Source of the DNA: an uncultured Acetatifactor sp. | GTDB taxonomy: Bacteria > Bacillota > Clostridia > Lachnospirales > Lachnospiraceae | DNA length: 64,000 bases | NCBI GenBank assembly: GCA_947627535.1 | Contig: CANQWM010000001.1 | Location: 124,001-188,000 of the forward strand | Direction: 5' to 3' | In this document: positions 19,702 to 37,426 of the stretch, piece by piece | Numbering within the stretch: the stretch's first letter is position 1 | Layout of the letters: every line of letters starts with the position of its first letter | The notes under the pieces: generated by a model | The model's input: only the letters and a program-made list of their open reading frames with translations | Told to the model about the DNA's origin: nothing | Databases searched by the model: none | Position numbers and translations under genes: made by a program

Positions 19702-19707
19702 GAAAAT

Positions 19708-19915
19708 AACCTGAAATGTTCGATAACTCCTGTTCATTTTTGAACCTACATTTACTTTAAACGGGATTCCTATATTGCCAGGTGGCTGTCAAGCCCTCAC
19801 TCGGCGGCAGGTTCCGCCGAGGATTGGAAGGGAAGGCAAAAGCCTGACTGCGGTGACCCACCTAGCGCTGCTAGGAGTCAAAAAACAGGAGGCGGCATTT
19901 TGGGGTTATAGACAG
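19708..19915 (+). ncRNA. ssrS: Structured non-coding RNA, 6S RNA candidate
   Basis: About 210 bases between a consensus promoter and a terminator. Hand pairing gives a closing stem (CTCCTGTT at 19727 with AACAGGAG at 19885, and ATAAC with GTTAT outside it). A large open middle follows, then an inner arm (GATTCCTA with TAGGAGTC; AGGTGG at 19780 with CCACCT at 19858) capped by a GC hairpin, CTCGGCGG with CCGCCGAG. A closed end, a wide central bubble and a long apical arm is the 6S RNA architecture, and the AGGC-AAAA-GCCT-GACTGCGG stretch resembles 6S. 6S RNA binds vegetative RNA polymerase holoenzyme. No covariance search was possible. This accounts for the 345-base gap after the esterase. Confidence 0.62.
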
Positions 19916-22927: not shown

Positions 22928-23249
22928 TTAGTAAGATATAAGGATGGTAAAAAGCAGAGAAACAAAGGCATGGATGGTGCGCAGTAGGGTTTCATTTTCC
23001 GACAGAGAGAGGAGGCCGCCGGCTGAAAGCCCCTCAGGTTCAGATGAACACCTGAAATTCCCACCGGAGCCGCCGCCGTGAACTACAGTAGCGGAGGACG
23101 CGGACGCGCGTTATGCGTAACAAAGAGCCTGCGGGCGGCCGGAGAGTCTGTGGGAATCAGGGTGGTAACGCGGAGTGATTCGTCCCTTTTGGCAAGGGAC
23201 GTTTTTTTATGGAATCATTTGTACAGCAGAATGCAGAAAGAGGTCAAAT
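22928..23249 (+). promoter_or_regulatory. T-box leader, phenylalanine specificity
   Basis: The T-box core AGGGTGGTAACGCGG is at 23159-23173. A UUC phenylalanine codon at 23058-23060 (in CCTGAAATTCCC) sits in the expected specifier loop. Uncharged tRNA-Phe should favour antitermination and so raise pheST transcription. The core reads TGGTAAC, one base off the canonical TGGNACC. This element fills the 426-base gap between yihY and pheS. Confidence 0.93.
23181..23208 (+). terminator. Regulated terminator of the Phe T-box
   Basis: CGTCCCTT and AAGGGACG form an 8-base-pair stem followed by seven T residues. The CGTCCC arm can instead pair with the GGG and GCG of the T-box core, as in the known antiterminator. 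Confidence 0.93.
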
Positions 23250-31187: not shown

Positions 31188-33281
31188 ATGAAAGTTTACA
31201 CAACTGACAAGATTCGCAACGTGGTACTCCTTGGACACGGCGGAAGCGGTAAGACCAGCCTTGCGGAAGCGATGGCTTACCTGTCCGGAATCACCTCCAG
31301 AATGGGAAAGGTGACGGACGGAAACACCATCAGCGATTACGGCAAGGAGGAACAGAAACGCCAGTTTTCCATCAGCGCCTCCGTGATCCCCGTGGAGTGG
31401 GAGGGCTGTAAGATCAATATCATAGATACCCCGGGCTATTTTGACTTCGTGGGCGAAGTGGAAGAGGCGGTCAGCGCTGCCGGAGCGGCGGTCATCGTGG
31501 TAAACGGAAAATCCGGCATTGAGGTGGGAACCCAGAAGGCGTGGGAGCTGTGTGAAAAGTATAAGCTGCCCCGGATCATCTATGTCTCCAATATGGATGT
31601 GGACAACGCTTCCTTCCGCCAGGTGGTGGAGGATATGACGGCGGCCTACGGAAAGAAGATGGCGCCTTTCCATCTTCCCATCCGTGAGAACGAGAAATTT
31701 GTGGGCTATGTGAACGTTGTGACAGAGACCGGAAACCGCTGGCAGGGAAAGGACGTCGTCCCCTGCGAGGTGCCCGAGTACAATAAGGCGAACCTGCAGA
31801 TCTGCCGGGACACGCTGATGGAGGCGGTGGCCGAGACCAGCGAGGAGATGATGGAGCGCTATTTCGGCGGAGAGACCTTCTCCGAGGCGGAGATCCGCGC
31901 CGCCCTCAGGACCAACGTCTGCGACTGCAGCATCGTGCCTATGACCATGGGCTCCAACACGCTCTGCCAGGGCGTCTACACGCTGTTAGACGATATCGTG
32001 AAATATATGCCAAGCCCCGAGAACCGCAAGGTGGCGGGTATCAACCTGAAGACGAACGAGATCTACAACGCGGACTATGATTTCTCAAAGGCAAAATCCG
32101 CGTATATCTGGAAGACCATTGTGGATCCCTTTATCGGCAAGTATTCCCTGATCAAGGTAAACTCCGGCGTACTCAAGACGGACGACCTGATCTACAACGT
32201 GGATAAGGATATCGAGGAGAAGATCGGCAAGCTGTATGTGCTTCAGGGAAACAAGCCCATGGAGGTGCCGGAGCTGCATGCAGGCGATATCGGCGCACTG
32301 GCGAAGCTGTCCGGCGCGCGTACCGGCGACAGCCTTTCCACAAAAGCATGCGCCATCAAGTTTGGAAAGTTTGAAATCTCGACGCCGTATACTTACATGC
32401 GCTACAAGCCGAAGAACAAAGCCGATGTGGATAAAATCTCCCAGGCGCTGCAGAAGATCACACATGAGGACCTGACAGTCAGGACGGTGAACGATTCCGA
32501 CAACCGCCAGATGCTGCTTTACGGCATGGGCGACCAGCATCTTGAGATCATTGCCAGCAGGCTTTTAAACGAGTACAAGGTGGAGGTAGAGCTTACGCGG
32601 CCCAAGATCGCCTACAGGGAGACCATTAAGGCCAATTCCGACGTGGAATATAAATACAAGAAACAGTCCGGCGGCCACGGCCAGTACGGCCACGTCAAGA
32701 TGCGCTTCAGCCCCTCCGGAGACCTGGAGAAGCCCTATGTATTTGAACAGGAGGTGGTAGGCGGGGCAGTGCCGAAGAACTACTACCCGGCGGTGGAGAA
32801 GGGACTGCAGGAATCTGTCCAGAGAGGCCCCATGGCTGCCTATCCCGTGGTAGGGGTGAAGGCTGTGCTCTATGACGGCTCCTATCATCCCGTGGACTCG
32901 TCGGAGCAGGCGTTCAAGGTTGCCACCGTTCAGGCGTTCCGGAAGGGATTTATGGAAGCGAAGCCCGTGCTTTTGGAGCCTATCGCATCCCTGAAGGTTA
33001 CGGTGCCTGACACCTATACCGGCGACGTTATGGGCGATCTGAACAAGCGCAGGGGCCGTGTCCTTGGCATGAACCCCCTGGCGGGCGGCAGGCAGGTTAT
33101 CGAGGCGGATATTCCTGTGAGCAGTCTATACGGTTACTGTACGGATCTCAGATCCATGACCGGCGGCAGAGGAGAGTACACCTATGAGTTCGCGCGCTAT
33201 GAGCAGGCGCCTTCGGATGTGCAGGAGAAGGAAGTAGCCGAGCGTGCGGCGAAGGTGGCGGAGAACAGCGGCGAGGAGTAA
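31188..33281 (+). CDS. EF-G2-type translational GTPase
   Basis: A 697-aa five-domain elongation factor G homologue. The P-loop is GHGGSGKTS (16-24) rather than the canonical AHIDAGKTT. The G3 motif is DTPGYFDF, with Tyr84 in place of the catalytic His of EF-G, and G4 reads SNMD instead of NKMD. These changes are shared with the EF-G2 group (for example the second EF-G of Thermus), so this is probably not the housekeeping translocase. Domain IV is present with GGHGQYGHVKMRFSP. The ATG at 31188 follows CGGAGG; the longer ORF starts in the divergent promoter region. Its cellular role in Clostridia is not established. Confidence 0.9.
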   Translation: MKVYTTDKIRNVVLLGHGGSGKTSLAEAMAYLSGITSRMGKVTDGNTISDYGKEEQKRQFSISASVIPVEWEGCKINIIDTPGYFDFVGEVEEAVSAAGAAVIVVNGKSGIEVGTQKAWELCEKYKLPRIIYVSNMDVDNASFRQVVEDMTAAYGKKMAPFHLPIRENEKFVGYVNVVTETGNRWQGKDVVPCEVPEYNKANLQICRDTLMEAVAETSEEMMERYFGGETFSEAEIRAALRTNVCDCSIVPMTMGSNTLCQGVYTLLDDIVKYMPSPENRKVAGINLKTNEIYNADYDFSKAKSAYIWKTIVDPFIGKYSLIKVNSGVLKTDDLIYNVDKDIEEKIGKLYVLQGNKPMEVPELHAGDIGALAKLSGARTGDSLSTKACAIKFGKFEISTPYTYMRYKPKNKADVDKISQALQKITHEDLTVRTVNDSDNRQMLLYGMGDQHLEIIASRLLNEYKVEVELTRPKIAYRETIKANSDVEYKYKKQSGGHGQYGHVKMRFSPSGDLEKPYVFEQEVVGGAVPKNYYPAVEKGLQESVQRGPMAAYPVVGVKAVLYDGSYHPVDSSEQAFKVATVQAFRKGFMEAKPVLLEPIASLKVTVPDTYTGDVMGDLNKRRGRVLGMNPLAGGRQVIEADIPVSSLYGYCTDLRSMTGGRGEYTYEFARYEQAPSDVQEKEVAERAAKVAENSGEE

Positions 33282-33294
33282 GAACGGCAGCGGG

Positions 33295-34740
33295 ATGAGA
33301 GAAAAGAGTTATCATATTTTGTGGGTGCTGCTTCCGCTGGCGGGCCTGGTTCTCTGGGGGGGTTACGGCATTACCGAAAATCTTTGGTATGACGAGGCAT
33401 ATTCGGCTGCGCTGGTAACCCATACGCCCTGGGAGATCGTAAGGATTACCGCCAGCGATGTGCATTCCCCCTTTTATTATTTCCTGCTGCAGATCGTCTG
33501 GAGGATTTTCGGCCCCATTATGGGGTTTCGATGCCTGAAGTGGTTTTCCATTCTGGCCATGACAGGCTATATGCTGCTGGGAAAGTATTATGTAAAGAAA
33601 TTCTTTGGGGAAAAGGTATCCGTCTGGTTCCTGTTTTTTTCCATCGTTATGCCGATTATGCTGGTGCAGAGCGGCACGGTGAGGATGTACGCGATGGCTC
33701 TGTTTTTTATGACGCTGTCGGAGCTGCTCATGCTGGATCTTTACAGGGAACCGTCACGGAAAAAGTGGCTGCTGTTTTTCGCGGCAAGCGTCTGCAGCGT
33801 ATACAGCCATACCTATGCCATGCTGCAGATGTTCTTTTTGTATTTGATTTTTCTTGCCGTTATCCTGTACAAAAAGAGGTATGAGCTTCTGAAGGGATTT
33901 TTTATCTGCGGCGTGGGTGTTTCCGTTCTGTATCTGCCGTGGCTGTTTGTTGTTTTTCTGCAGCTGAAGCAGCGGACGGGCGGTATGGCGGGGGCAGATG
34001 CCGGCCAGATGATAGCTGCGACGATGTGGGATTGTTTCACAGAGTGGTTTACGGCTTTGGAGAAGCCGGTCTGGCCTGTTTTTTATGGGGAGGCGGCGCT
34101 GTTTCTGTTCCTGTGCTGGAAAGGCGCGGGGTGGATGAGAAAACGGAGGAACTGCATTCCCGGCCTGGGTGTCCTCGCTATAGCGCTGACCATAGCTGCA
34201 AGCCTTGCCGTCTATCTTTTCACGGGACAGGGATTTTTCGGACGGGTATTTTTCCCGGGGTTTGCGTCGGTTATGCTTCTGTATGCTGTTGGGATGGAAC
34301 AGCTGCGTTCCCGAATCGGGAAGGGACTTGTAATCGCCGCGGCGCTGGTGTGCTTTGTCCTGCAGTACCGTTCGGAGCTGGAGCTGGAATACGATCCGGG
34401 ACTCCAGACATGGAAAGACTTTGTGGAGGAGAATGTGCAGGAGAACGACATGATTATGGCGCCCAATGTGCATACGCTTTACCTCAGTGTGTTCTGTCCC
34501 GATACAGATTTTATGATTTACATGTACCTCCCCGGAAATTCGCCTTTCCGCGCGCAGGTTTTTTCGGACTTTCCTCAGCTTGACAGATTTGCAGGGCGCC
34601 AGGCGACGTTATGGTATGTCTGTGCCGAGGGGGAGACGCCGGACTTTCTGGAAGGGCGGTTCACCTGGGAGGAAGCGCTGAATTTCCACTATATGTATCA
34701 GGATTTCACGGTTTTTCAGCTGAGCCCGTCGGCTCTGTAA
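33295..34740 (+). CDS. GT-C membrane glycosyltransferase (GT39-like)
   Basis: A 481-aa integral membrane protein with about ten to twelve hydrophobic segments. The first extracellular loop carries LWYDEAYSAALV, the acidic motif of GT-C glycosyltransferases such as the PMT/ArnT (GT39/GT83) group, which use polyprenyl-phosphate sugars. The C-terminal 100 residues form a soluble outer domain (WYVCAEGETPDF). It starts 14 bases after the EF-G2 stop; the ORF track start overlaps that gene and is less likely. The acceptor (protein, lipid or wall polymer) is unknown. Confidence 0.82.
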   Translation: MREKSYHILWVLLPLAGLVLWGGYGITENLWYDEAYSAALVTHTPWEIVRITASDVHSPFYYFLLQIVWRIFGPIMGFRCLKWFSILAMTGYMLLGKYYVKKFFGEKVSVWFLFFSIVMPIMLVQSGTVRMYAMALFFMTLSELLMLDLYREPSRKKWLLFFAASVCSVYSHTYAMLQMFFLYLIFLAVILYKKRYELLKGFFICGVGVSVLYLPWLFVVFLQLKQRTGGMAGADAGQMIAATMWDCFTEWFTALEKPVWPVFYGEAALFLFLCWKGAGWMRKRRNCIPGLGVLAIALTIAASLAVYLFTGQGFFGRVFFPGFASVMLLYAVGMEQLRSRIGKGLVIAAALVCFVLQYRSELELEYDPGLQTWKDFVEENVQENDMIMAPNVHTLYLSVFCPDTDFMIYMYLPGNSPFRAQVFSDFPQLDRFAGRQATLWYVCAEGETPDFLEGRFTWEEALNFHYMYQDFTVFQLSPSAL

Positions 34741-34810
34741 ATGGAATCCCGGCACCCCGGCGTTTCGGTTCCCGGATTCCATGCTTTCAGTTCCCGGATT
34801 CCATGCTTTT
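34741..34810 (+). terminator. Terminator-like hairpin with duplicated 3' arm
   Basis: ATGGAATCCCGG at 34741 can pair with CCGGATTCCAT in either of two direct repeats (34768-34788 and 34790-34810, each GTTCCCGGATTCCATGCTTT). Both copies end in a short T-tract. Only one stem can form at a time. Confidence 0.6.
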
Positions 34811-34815
34811 CGCTC

Positions 34816-34844
34816 TTGACAGGATATCGTAAAACGGATAAAAT
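34816..34844 (+). promoter_or_regulatory. leuS promoter
   Basis: TTGACA at 34816-34821, an exact 17-base spacer and TAAAAT at 34839-34844. The transcript would begin near 34851, giving a leader of about 165 bases. Confidence 0.88.
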
Positions 34845-34850
34845 GAGTAA

Positions 34851-34969
34851 AGTTTTATGATGCAGCCGAGAGGAAGACGAAGCAGAGCAGCCGCAGGCGG
34901 TGGAACCGTTACAGATCGGAAAAAGGATACAGCCCTTTCGTCTTAAAAGGCGGGAGGGCCTTTATATTG
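34851..34969 (+). promoter_or_regulatory. leuS leader with alternative antiterminator/terminator pairing
   Basis: AAGACGAA at 34874-34881 is perfectly complementary to TTCGTCTT at 34937-34944. The second of these is also the 3' part of the 5' arm of a terminator-like stem (34932-34944 with 34947-34959). The two structures are mutually exclusive, the pattern of an attenuator or riboswitch. GGTGGAACCG at 34899-34908 recalls the T-box UGGNACC core, but the leader is too short for a normal Stem I and lacks the AGGG and GCG flanks. The inducing signal is unknown; uncharged tRNA-Leu is the natural guess. Confidence 0.55.
34932..34965 (+). terminator. Attenuator hairpin upstream of leuS
   Basis: GCCCTTTCGTCTT pairs with AAGGCGGGAGGGC; all positions pair if G-U is allowed, with the top pairs opening to form the loop. 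CTTTATATT follows. The U-tract is interrupted, so termination may be partial. Confidence 0.55.
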
Positions 34970-35014
34970 TGCTGCGCAGACCGGAAACGGCGCAAAAAGA
35001 GAGGAGACGGACCT

Positions 35015-37426
35015 ATGGCAGTACCTTACAATCACCATGAGGTGGAAAAAAAGTGGCAGGATATCTGGGATGAAGAGAAGGCGTTTGCAACATCCGACGA
35101 TTATTCCAAGCCGAAATATTACGCGCTGGTAGAATTTCCCTACCCTTCGGGACAGGGGCTTCATGTAGGCCATCCGCGGCCCTATACCGCGCTGGATATC
35201 GTGGCCAGAAAGCGCAGGATGCAGGGCTATAACGTGCTTTATCCCATGGGATGGGACGCCTTTGGGCTTCCTACGGAGAATTACGCCATCAAGAACCACA
35301 TCCATCCTAAGATCGTGACGAAAAACAATGTGGAACGCTTTAAAAACCAGCTCCATTCTCTGGGTTATTCCTTTGACTGGGAGAGGGAAGTGAATACCAC
35401 CGATCCGGAGTATTACAAATGGACCCAGTGGATCTTCCTGAAGCTGTTTAAAGCGGGCCTGGCCTATAAAACCGAGATGCCCATCAACTGGTGTACCTCC
35501 TGCAAAGTTGGCCTTGCCAACGAGGAAGTGGTAAACGGCGTCTGCGAGCGCTGCGGCTCCGAGGTGGTCCGCAAGGTCAAGAGCCAGTGGATGCTGAAGA
35601 TCACGGAATACGCCGACAAGCTGATCCAGGGACTGGACACCGTGGATTATATCGAGCGCGTCAAGGTTTCCCAGAGGAACTGGATCGGCAAGTCCCAGGG
35701 AGCGGAGGTGGATTTCCCCATCACGGGAAAGGATGACAGGCTGCGCATTTACACCACCCGTCCCGACACCCTGTTCGGCGCCACCTACATGGTCGTTTCC
35801 CCGGAGCATCCGCTGATCGAGAAGTATAAGGATGAGATCGGAAATTACGACGCGCTTGTAAAGTACCGGGAGCAGGCGGCGAAGAAATCCGATTTTGAGA
35901 GAACGGAGCTCGCAAAGGATAAGACCGGCGTCCAGATCGAGGGCCTGACCGCCACGAACCCCGTAAACGGCAGAACGATCCCCATCTGGATCTCGGACTA
36001 TGTATTGATGACATACGGAACCGGCGCCATTATGGCGGTGCCGGCGCATGACGAGAGAGACTGGGATTTCGCAAAGAAATTCGGCCTTCCCATCATAGAG
36101 GTGGTAGCGGGCAGTCCCGTCAGCGTCCAGGAGCAGGTGTACACGGATGTGGCGGTGGGAACGATGGTCAATTCCGACTTCCTGGACGGCCTTTCCGTGG
36201 AAGAGGCAAAGAAAAAAATCATCGCCTTTCTGGAAGAAAAGGGGATCGGCCACAGCAAGACCAACTTTAAGCTCCGCGACTGGGTTTTCTCCAGACAGCG
36301 CTACTGGGGCGAGCCCATTCCCATCGTAAAGTGTGAGAAATGCGGCTTTGTGCCGTTGGACGAGAGCGAGCTGCCGCTGATGCTTCCGGAGGTGGAGAGC
36401 TATGAGCCCACCGACAACGGCGAATCCCCTCTGGCCGCCATGGAAGACTGGGTGAACACTACCTGTCCCTGCTGCAAGGGCCCCGCAAAGCGGGAGACGG
36501 ACACCATGCCCCAGTGGGCGGGTTCCTCCTGGTATTTCCTGCGCTACACGGATCCCCACAACAAGGAGGCGCTGGCAGGGAAGGAGGCGCTGGAATACTG
36601 GATGCCTGTGGACTGGTACAACGGCGGTATGGAGCATACCACACTGCATCTGCTGTATTCCCGGTTCTGGCACAGATTTCTTTATGACCAGGGATACGTG
36701 CCCTGTCCGGAGCCTTACCAGAAGCGTACCAGCCACGGCATGATCCTTGGCTCCAACGGCGAGAAGATGTCAAAATCCAGAGGAAACGTGGTGAATCCGG
36801 ACGACATTGTCCGGGATTACGGCGCGGATACCCTGCGGACTTATGAGATGTTCATCGGCGCCTTCGATTTAAGCGCCGCATGGAGCGAGGACGGCGTAAA
36901 GGGCTGCCGGAGATTTCTGGAGCGCGTCTGGAAGCTTGGGGACATCCTGACGGAGGGAGAGGGCTACAGCGCGGATCTGGAGACAAAAATGCACCAGACC
37001 GTGAAAAAAGTTTCCGGCGACTACGAGACATTAAAATACAATACTGCCATTGCGGCCATGATGTCCCTGCTGAACGAGTTTTATAAGAAAAATGCGGTGA
37101 CGCGGGGAGAGTACAGGACATTGCTGATCCTGTTAAACCCTGTTGCGCCCCATATCACGGAGGAACTGTGGCAGACGGCGGGATTTGAGGGAAGGCTGTA
37201 TCAGGCCAAATGGCCGGAGTACGACGAGGCAAAGACCGTGGAGAGCACCGTGGAGATCGGCGTCCAGATCAACGGAAAGATGCGGGCCGCGATCACGGTG
37301 CCGAAGGATGAGGAAAAGGAGAAGGTCATCGCCGCCGCAAAGGAGGCGCTGGGAGAAAAGCTGACCGGAACCGTGGTCAAAGAGATCTTTGTGCCCGGAA
37401 GGCTTGTGAATATCGTGATGAAATAA
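35015..37426 (+). CDS. leuS: Leucyl-tRNA synthetase
   Basis: An 803-aa class I synthetase charging tRNA-Leu. The HIGH-type motif is [12 protein letters not shown] and the KMSKS loop is [16 protein letters not shown]. The CP1 editing domain (about 220-420) contains [20 protein letters not shown]. Cysteine pairs in [24 protein letters not shown] and CPCCKG suggest zinc binding. The C-terminal anticodon-binding and LeuRS-specific domains end in [16 protein letters not shown]. The ATG at 35015 follows GAGGAGAC; the ORF track start at 34967 is in the leader. Expression is likely set by the upstream leader. Confidence 0.97.

Follow-up and report, generated by a model that had tools for sequence, protein, structure and literature searches.

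The closest described relatives of the leader reported here are the T-boxes (Rfam RF00230), in particular the leucine-specific T-box that precedes leuS. A T-box of this family has Stem I, a specifier, Stem III, an antiterminator 5' arm and a UGGN bulge. Shortened forms have been described: the ultrashort-Stem-I, translational T-boxes located before ileS in Actinobacteria keep the specifier, Stem II and a discriminator domain with the UGGN bulge, and the F-box is given as CCGUCA for N. farcinica (PMC7583486). Degenerated T-boxes have also appeared in comparative surveys, where some transporter T-boxes were marked as seemingly degenerated and regressive evolution was suggested for the low T-box numbers of some streptococci (PMC2494555).

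The leader studied here precedes leuS in an uncultured Acetatifactor sp. and lies within a 64-kb stretch of DNA that was analysed as a whole and is called the window below. Like the leucine T-box, it has the promoter region, the first bases of Stem I, the Stem IIA/F-box hairpin, the terminator and the position before leuS, whereas Stem I beyond those first bases and all of the other parts named above are absent. The distance from the predicted transcription start to the terminator is 81 nt, against a median of 254 nt in intact leaders. The ultrashort-Stem-I T-boxes are likewise shortened leaders of a synthetase gene; of the elements that they keep, only Stem IIA is present in the window. With the degenerated T-boxes of the surveys, the leader shares the presence of T-box remains before a gene whose relatives are T-box regulated. 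It differs from them in belonging to a graded series (intact, truncated, none) before one essential gene in one genus. No description of such truncated leaders was found in the open-access literature.

Layout of the leuS leader

The following features, all on the forward strand, were distinguished in the window:

34816-34844, + strand: leuS promoter TTGACA-17-TAAAAT, sigma-A-type, 11 of 12 consensus positions matched
34874-34881, + strand: AAGACGAA, remnant of the 5' base of Stem I and 5' arm of a possible competing (antiterminator-like) helix
34892-34911, + strand: CGCAGGCGG-TGGAA-CCGTTA, what is left of the Stem IIA hairpin of the T-box, including the F-box (CCGTTA, 34906-34911)
34932-34959, + strand: intrinsic terminator hairpin of 12 pairs, inherited from the leuS T-box
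34937-34944, + strand: TTCGTCTT, common to the competing helix (3' arm) and the terminator (part of the 5' arm)
34967-34995, + strand: small hairpin just 5' of the leuS ribosome-binding site
35015-37426, + strand: leuS, leucyl-tRNA synthetase, the only copy found in the genome

The -35 box TTGACA (34816-34821) and the -10 box TAAAAT (34839-34844) are separated by a spacer of 17 nt. Transcription of the leader was predicted to start at about 34851, so that about 81 nt of RNA precede the terminator. The terminator has a weak U tract behind it (CTTTATATTG) and lies 55 nt before the leuS ATG at 35015. A second promoter was sought between the terminator and leuS, and none was found. The fold stability of the whole leader was ordinary (z -0.30).

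An earlier, sequence-only reading of this locus had proposed a leader with mutually exclusive hairpins that was not a normal T-box, and much of that description was confirmed. The promoter, which had been called perfect, has the position and boxes assigned to it, although one consensus match is missing. The complementarity of AAGACGAA (34874) to TTCGTCTT (34937) was exact, and the two hairpins do exclude each other because both need 34937-34944. The terminator-like stem that uses the second segment is real, with 12 pairs instead of the 13 counted. The leader is indeed too short for a usual Stem I, and it is not a normal T-box: RF00230 gave no match to 34700-35100 at E values up to 10, and a scan of the whole window at the gathering score found no T-box at leuS. 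The search for a known leader family returned no other credible candidate at the leader, the sole weak Rfam match being a snoRNA model, below its cut-off and on the opposite strand. The pheST leader (22962-23190), with the T-box noted there for pheS, scores 107 bits in Rfam.

Nine T-box matches were found in the genome to which the window belongs, and all 138 genus members sampled had T-box matches. Most of the nine fall below the Rfam cut-off of 93 bits, among them the T-box before trpE (2128-2371, 68 bits); therefore, the gathering score undercounts T-boxes here. A 6S RNA (RF00013) was found at 19705-19910 of the window with 76.7 bits.

Several observations were made on the surroundings of the leader. 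The upstream neighbour of leuS (33244-34740) encodes a membrane protein of 498 aa that by eye resembles a glycosyltransferase, and it sits between an EF-G-like gene and leuS; several relatives, among them the sister genome G159, have the EF-G-like gene immediately 5' of leuS. The membrane-protein gene is followed at 34740-34810 by a terminator-like hairpin (ATGGAATCCCGG...CCGGATTCCAT), the 3' arm of which is duplicated in tandem (TTCCCGGATTCCATGCTTT twice), so that one 5' arm has two possible partners. The small hairpin at 34967-34995 is separated from the leuS start by 19 nt. Hairpins resembling it occupy the same place in G159 (with a paired change from G-C to A-U), G013 and G041, with or without a T-box terminator.

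Homology to intact leucine T-boxes

A profile built from 39 intact leuS leaders of the genus matched the window at the 5' end of the leader (34806-34877, E 4.8e-5) and at the terminator (34927-34970, E 8.4e-6). This profile alone did not recover the Stem IIA hairpin, which was tested by local alignment and by pattern. The IIA/F-box segment aligned to intact leaders better than shuffled sequences did (p 0.003 for the window, p < 0.001 for G159), and the pattern of the F-box hairpin had one match in 64 kb, with 0 expected.

The retained parts could be placed within the intact leaders by alignment. AAGACGAA aligned with AAAGACGGA/AAAGATGGA, the 5' base of Stem I in G005, G121 and G166, and the first Stem I bases are retained (GGAAGACGA in the window, AAAGACGGA in G005). 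The Stem IIA/B element with the F-box is represented by the IIA hairpin and the F-box: GAGCAGCCGCAGGCGG-TGGAA-CCGTTACAGA of the window aligned with GAGTAGTCGCAGGCGGTGTGGCTCCCGTTAAAGA of G005, and GGTGGAACCG at 34899-34908 forms the loop and the 3' arm of this hairpin. The CCGTTA of the window corresponds to the F-box in the form CCGUUA. As judged by eye, the IIA loop of intact leaders pairs with a downstream GAGC or GAUC strand (IIB); G159 retains this pairing (GGUC/GAUC), which the window no longer has. Stem III is missing from the window, as are the remainder of Stem I, including the specifier, and the antiterminator 5' arm, AGAGTGGTACCACGGAA. The specifier, which reads AACTGG or AACTC (Leu CUG/CUC) in intact leaders, has no counterpart in the window.

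Leader states across the genus

The genus sample comprised 138 genomes, many of them metagenome-assembled. The leuS loci of 100 genomes were taken with about 700 bases on each side of the start and, together with the locus of the window and two others, gave a set of 103 upstream regions. Leader states were assigned from sequence patterns and by visual inspection, and the automatic labels of three leaders were corrected: the truncated label of G105 rested on a chance match at -592, so that this leader was moved to the class without a T-box, and two contig-end cases were moved to the intact class. By these calls, about 42 leaders have an intact leucine T-box, 17 are truncated, with the window among them, and 44 have no T-box feature, showing a promoter or other upstream sequence instead.

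In a truncated leader, which lacks Stem I, a promoter is followed by 1-91 nt and the T-box terminator. The corresponding distance from the predicted start to the terminator in intact leaders is 211-373 nt. All 12 intact leaders tested passed the Rfam T-box gathering score (99.7-139.8 bits), and none of the seven truncated leaders tested matched the T-box model at E 1. Hairpin stability did not differ between intact and truncated leaders. A comparison of U counts between truncated and intact terminators (p 0.02) was set aside because the stem ends had been chosen inconsistently.

On an unrooted tree of 99 leuS sequences (690 nt), 12 changes were needed for the truncated state, at least eight of them forced by well-supported branches; the distinction of intact leaders from all others needed 17 changes, and all three states together needed 23. 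The clearest single example is a sister pair (support 99) in which G059 has a full T-box and G031 a truncated one with a common 5' end. In G031, Stem I is deleted and the bulge has decayed to TAATACC. Outside the genus, intact leuS T-boxes were found at 4 of 20 loci searched, and inspection by pattern of 35 leuS loci from Lachnospiraceae and Clostridia revealed no further truncated leaders. In about 22 genomes of the genus, including G008, G056 and G142, the common leuS is replaced by a second type; this type is only 52-56% identical to the leuS of the window over the N-terminal 236 aa, and an intact T-box precedes at least one copy of it (G108). Because intact leuS T-boxes occur both outside the genus and on this diverged second type, loss rather than gain is likely to have been the direction of change at leuS, the tree being unrooted. 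The leader of the window would be one of many independent losses of the leuS T-box within a single genus of gut bacteria.

Comparison with the sister genome

The layout of the window is present in two sequences only, the window and G159. The N-terminus of leuS is 99.6% identical between them at the protein level, and the truncated layout is the same. From the promoter to the start codon about 21% of columns differ, compared with 11 of 94 fourfold sites in leuS; therefore, strong constraint does not act on the leader in its entirety. Three of its parts were nearly or wholly unchanged, namely the promoter, the ribosome-binding site and a 27-nt block that contains AAGACGAA. This block is identical in both sequences (permutation p 0.05, with 14 differences in 88 leader columns).

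Four pairs of the terminator stem have changed between the two genomes, and all of them still pair. Two of the changes are both-sided (U-A/C-G and G-C/A-U) and two are one-sided (U-G/U-A). The sequence-only reading was to be refuted by a lack of compensatory changes in both stems. Such changes were found in the terminator only; the first stem is invariant and thus uninformative. Since the four changed pairs remain paired, the terminator hairpin appears to be kept as a structure and not to be simply decaying.

Probable mode of leuS expression

Taken together, these comparisons make it likely that the leader of the window is the remnant of a leucine T-box that lost its sensor by internal deletion, with leuS now expressed constitutively via a leaky terminator. 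The deletion would have taken out Stem III, Stem I together with its specifier, and the antiterminator 5' arm that bears the UGGUACC bulge, leaving the promoter, the first Stem I bases, the Stem IIA/F-box hairpin and the terminator. With Stem I, the specifier and the bulge gone, tRNA-Leu charging could not be read in the manner of a T-box, and tRNA sensing has most likely been lost.

According to this model, the strong promoter would fire and RNA polymerase would partly read through the terminator with its poor U tract. Such read-through is required because leuS is single-copy and no second promoter was found after the terminator. Expression of leuS would then be constitutive and partly attenuated by a fixed, leaky terminator. 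Read-through might be eased by the early-forming AAGACGAA:TTCGTCTT helix, the fold of which is about 4 kcal/mol less stable than the terminator fold. Some room for function is left by the preserved terminator pairs, the identical 27-nt block and the equal hairpin stability of intact and truncated leaders. By the predicted folds, the competing helix may act in unregulated antitermination or, less likely, as part of a rewired switch.

Alternative explanations

One alternative is a rewired attenuator, in which the terminator and the competing helix were kept after sensor loss to serve another signal (elongation speed, a protein or temperature) or as a built-in antiterminator at a fixed level. The complementarity of AAGACGAA and TTCGTCTT extends over 8 nt in the window and 9 nt in G159, longer than in shuffled leaders (p 0.034, which is marginal, and p 0.010, respectively). 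In the predicted folding of the growing chain, the competing helix formed when the RNA was about 92-106 nt long and gave way to the terminator beyond 108 nt. Folds in which the helix was enforced reached -26.7 kcal/mol against -30.9 kcal/mol for the terminator fold in the window, and -34.4 against -38.1 kcal/mol in G159. In both members, the antiterminator and terminator folds thus differ by about 4 kcal/mol, and the preservation of the terminator pairs through changes also fits retained attenuation. However, the duplex energy was no better than that of shuffles (p 0.47 in the window, 0.15 in G159) in a test of low power that intact antiterminators fail too, and the competing helix is unchanged between the only two sequences that have it. 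In the remaining 15 truncated leaders, complementarity of this kind is limited to 0-6 nt, as it is in most intact ones; therefore, the helix is not a common property of truncated leaders. Retention of a rewired attenuator was considered unlikely on this evidence.

The retained hairpin could instead serve mainly as a 5' stabilizing structure of the leuS mRNA. This would suit G015, G025, G161, G002 and G160, where the hairpin lies 1-21 nt after the predicted start and termination is unlikely. In the window, however, 81 nt of RNA precede the hairpin, which is more simply read as a terminator; moreover, 44 leaders manage without it. For the window, a mainly stabilizing role seems rather improbable.

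In the sequence-only reading, UGGAACC was taken for the tRNA-binding core of a minimal or new class of attenuator, in which uncharged tRNA-Leu bound to this motif would stabilize AAGACGAA:TTCGTCTT against the terminator. The mutual exclusion of the helices and the resemblance of UGGAACC to the T-box bulge speak for such a switch. However, the motif (34901-34907) comprises the loop and the start of the 3' arm of the Stem IIA hairpin and is not located between antiterminator helices; the antiterminator segment with the 7-nt UGGNACC bulge is deleted in the window. Therefore, its reading as a tRNA core was wrong. The fourth base points the same way. The bulge was UGGUACC in 40 of 40 scored intact leuS leaders of the genus, and all five tRNA-Leu genes read in this genome have A73 (for three of them read from acceptor pairing, as ARAGORN adds one base at each end). 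UGGU pairs with ACCA, whereas UGGA of the window fails to pair at the discriminator position, a match at which is taken as a criterion by TBDB (PMC7778990). The motif was also not kept in the sister, which reads CCGGTCC at this site, and the leader has no specifier, no Stem I and no Rfam match. A new class had to be abandoned as well, because other leuS genes of the genus have full leucine T-boxes and the window aligns as a product of internal deletion from them. A minimal tRNA-responsive switch is accordingly very improbable.

Ribosome-mediated attenuation through a leader peptide encoded by a 29-codon frame (34857-34946), which ends in the terminator loop and also opens in G159, can practically be dismissed, since the frame has one Leu codon in the window and none in G159, is shifted between the two by a one-base length difference in the IIA loop, and is preceded by no ribosome-binding site, and the 5' end would be about 7 nt.

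Implications

The preferred explanation, sensor loss with leaky constitutive expression, makes the leader of the window, taken alone, a regulatory fossil. If the two-helix arrangement (AAGACGAA:TTCGTCTT against the inherited terminator) did prove functional, it would set or regulate leuS expression without tRNA in the species of the window and its sister, and a riboswitch expression platform would have been reused after loss of the aptamer. The case of UGGAACC also calls for caution when a T-box-like core is recognized by eye, since the motif may belong to a different part of a decayed T-box. Across the genus, the T-box before one essential gene is intact, partly deleted or absent, which amounts to a natural series. 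This series allows testing of how a riboswitch can be lost without losing expression of an essential gene, and of whether a retained terminator turns into a fixed attenuator.
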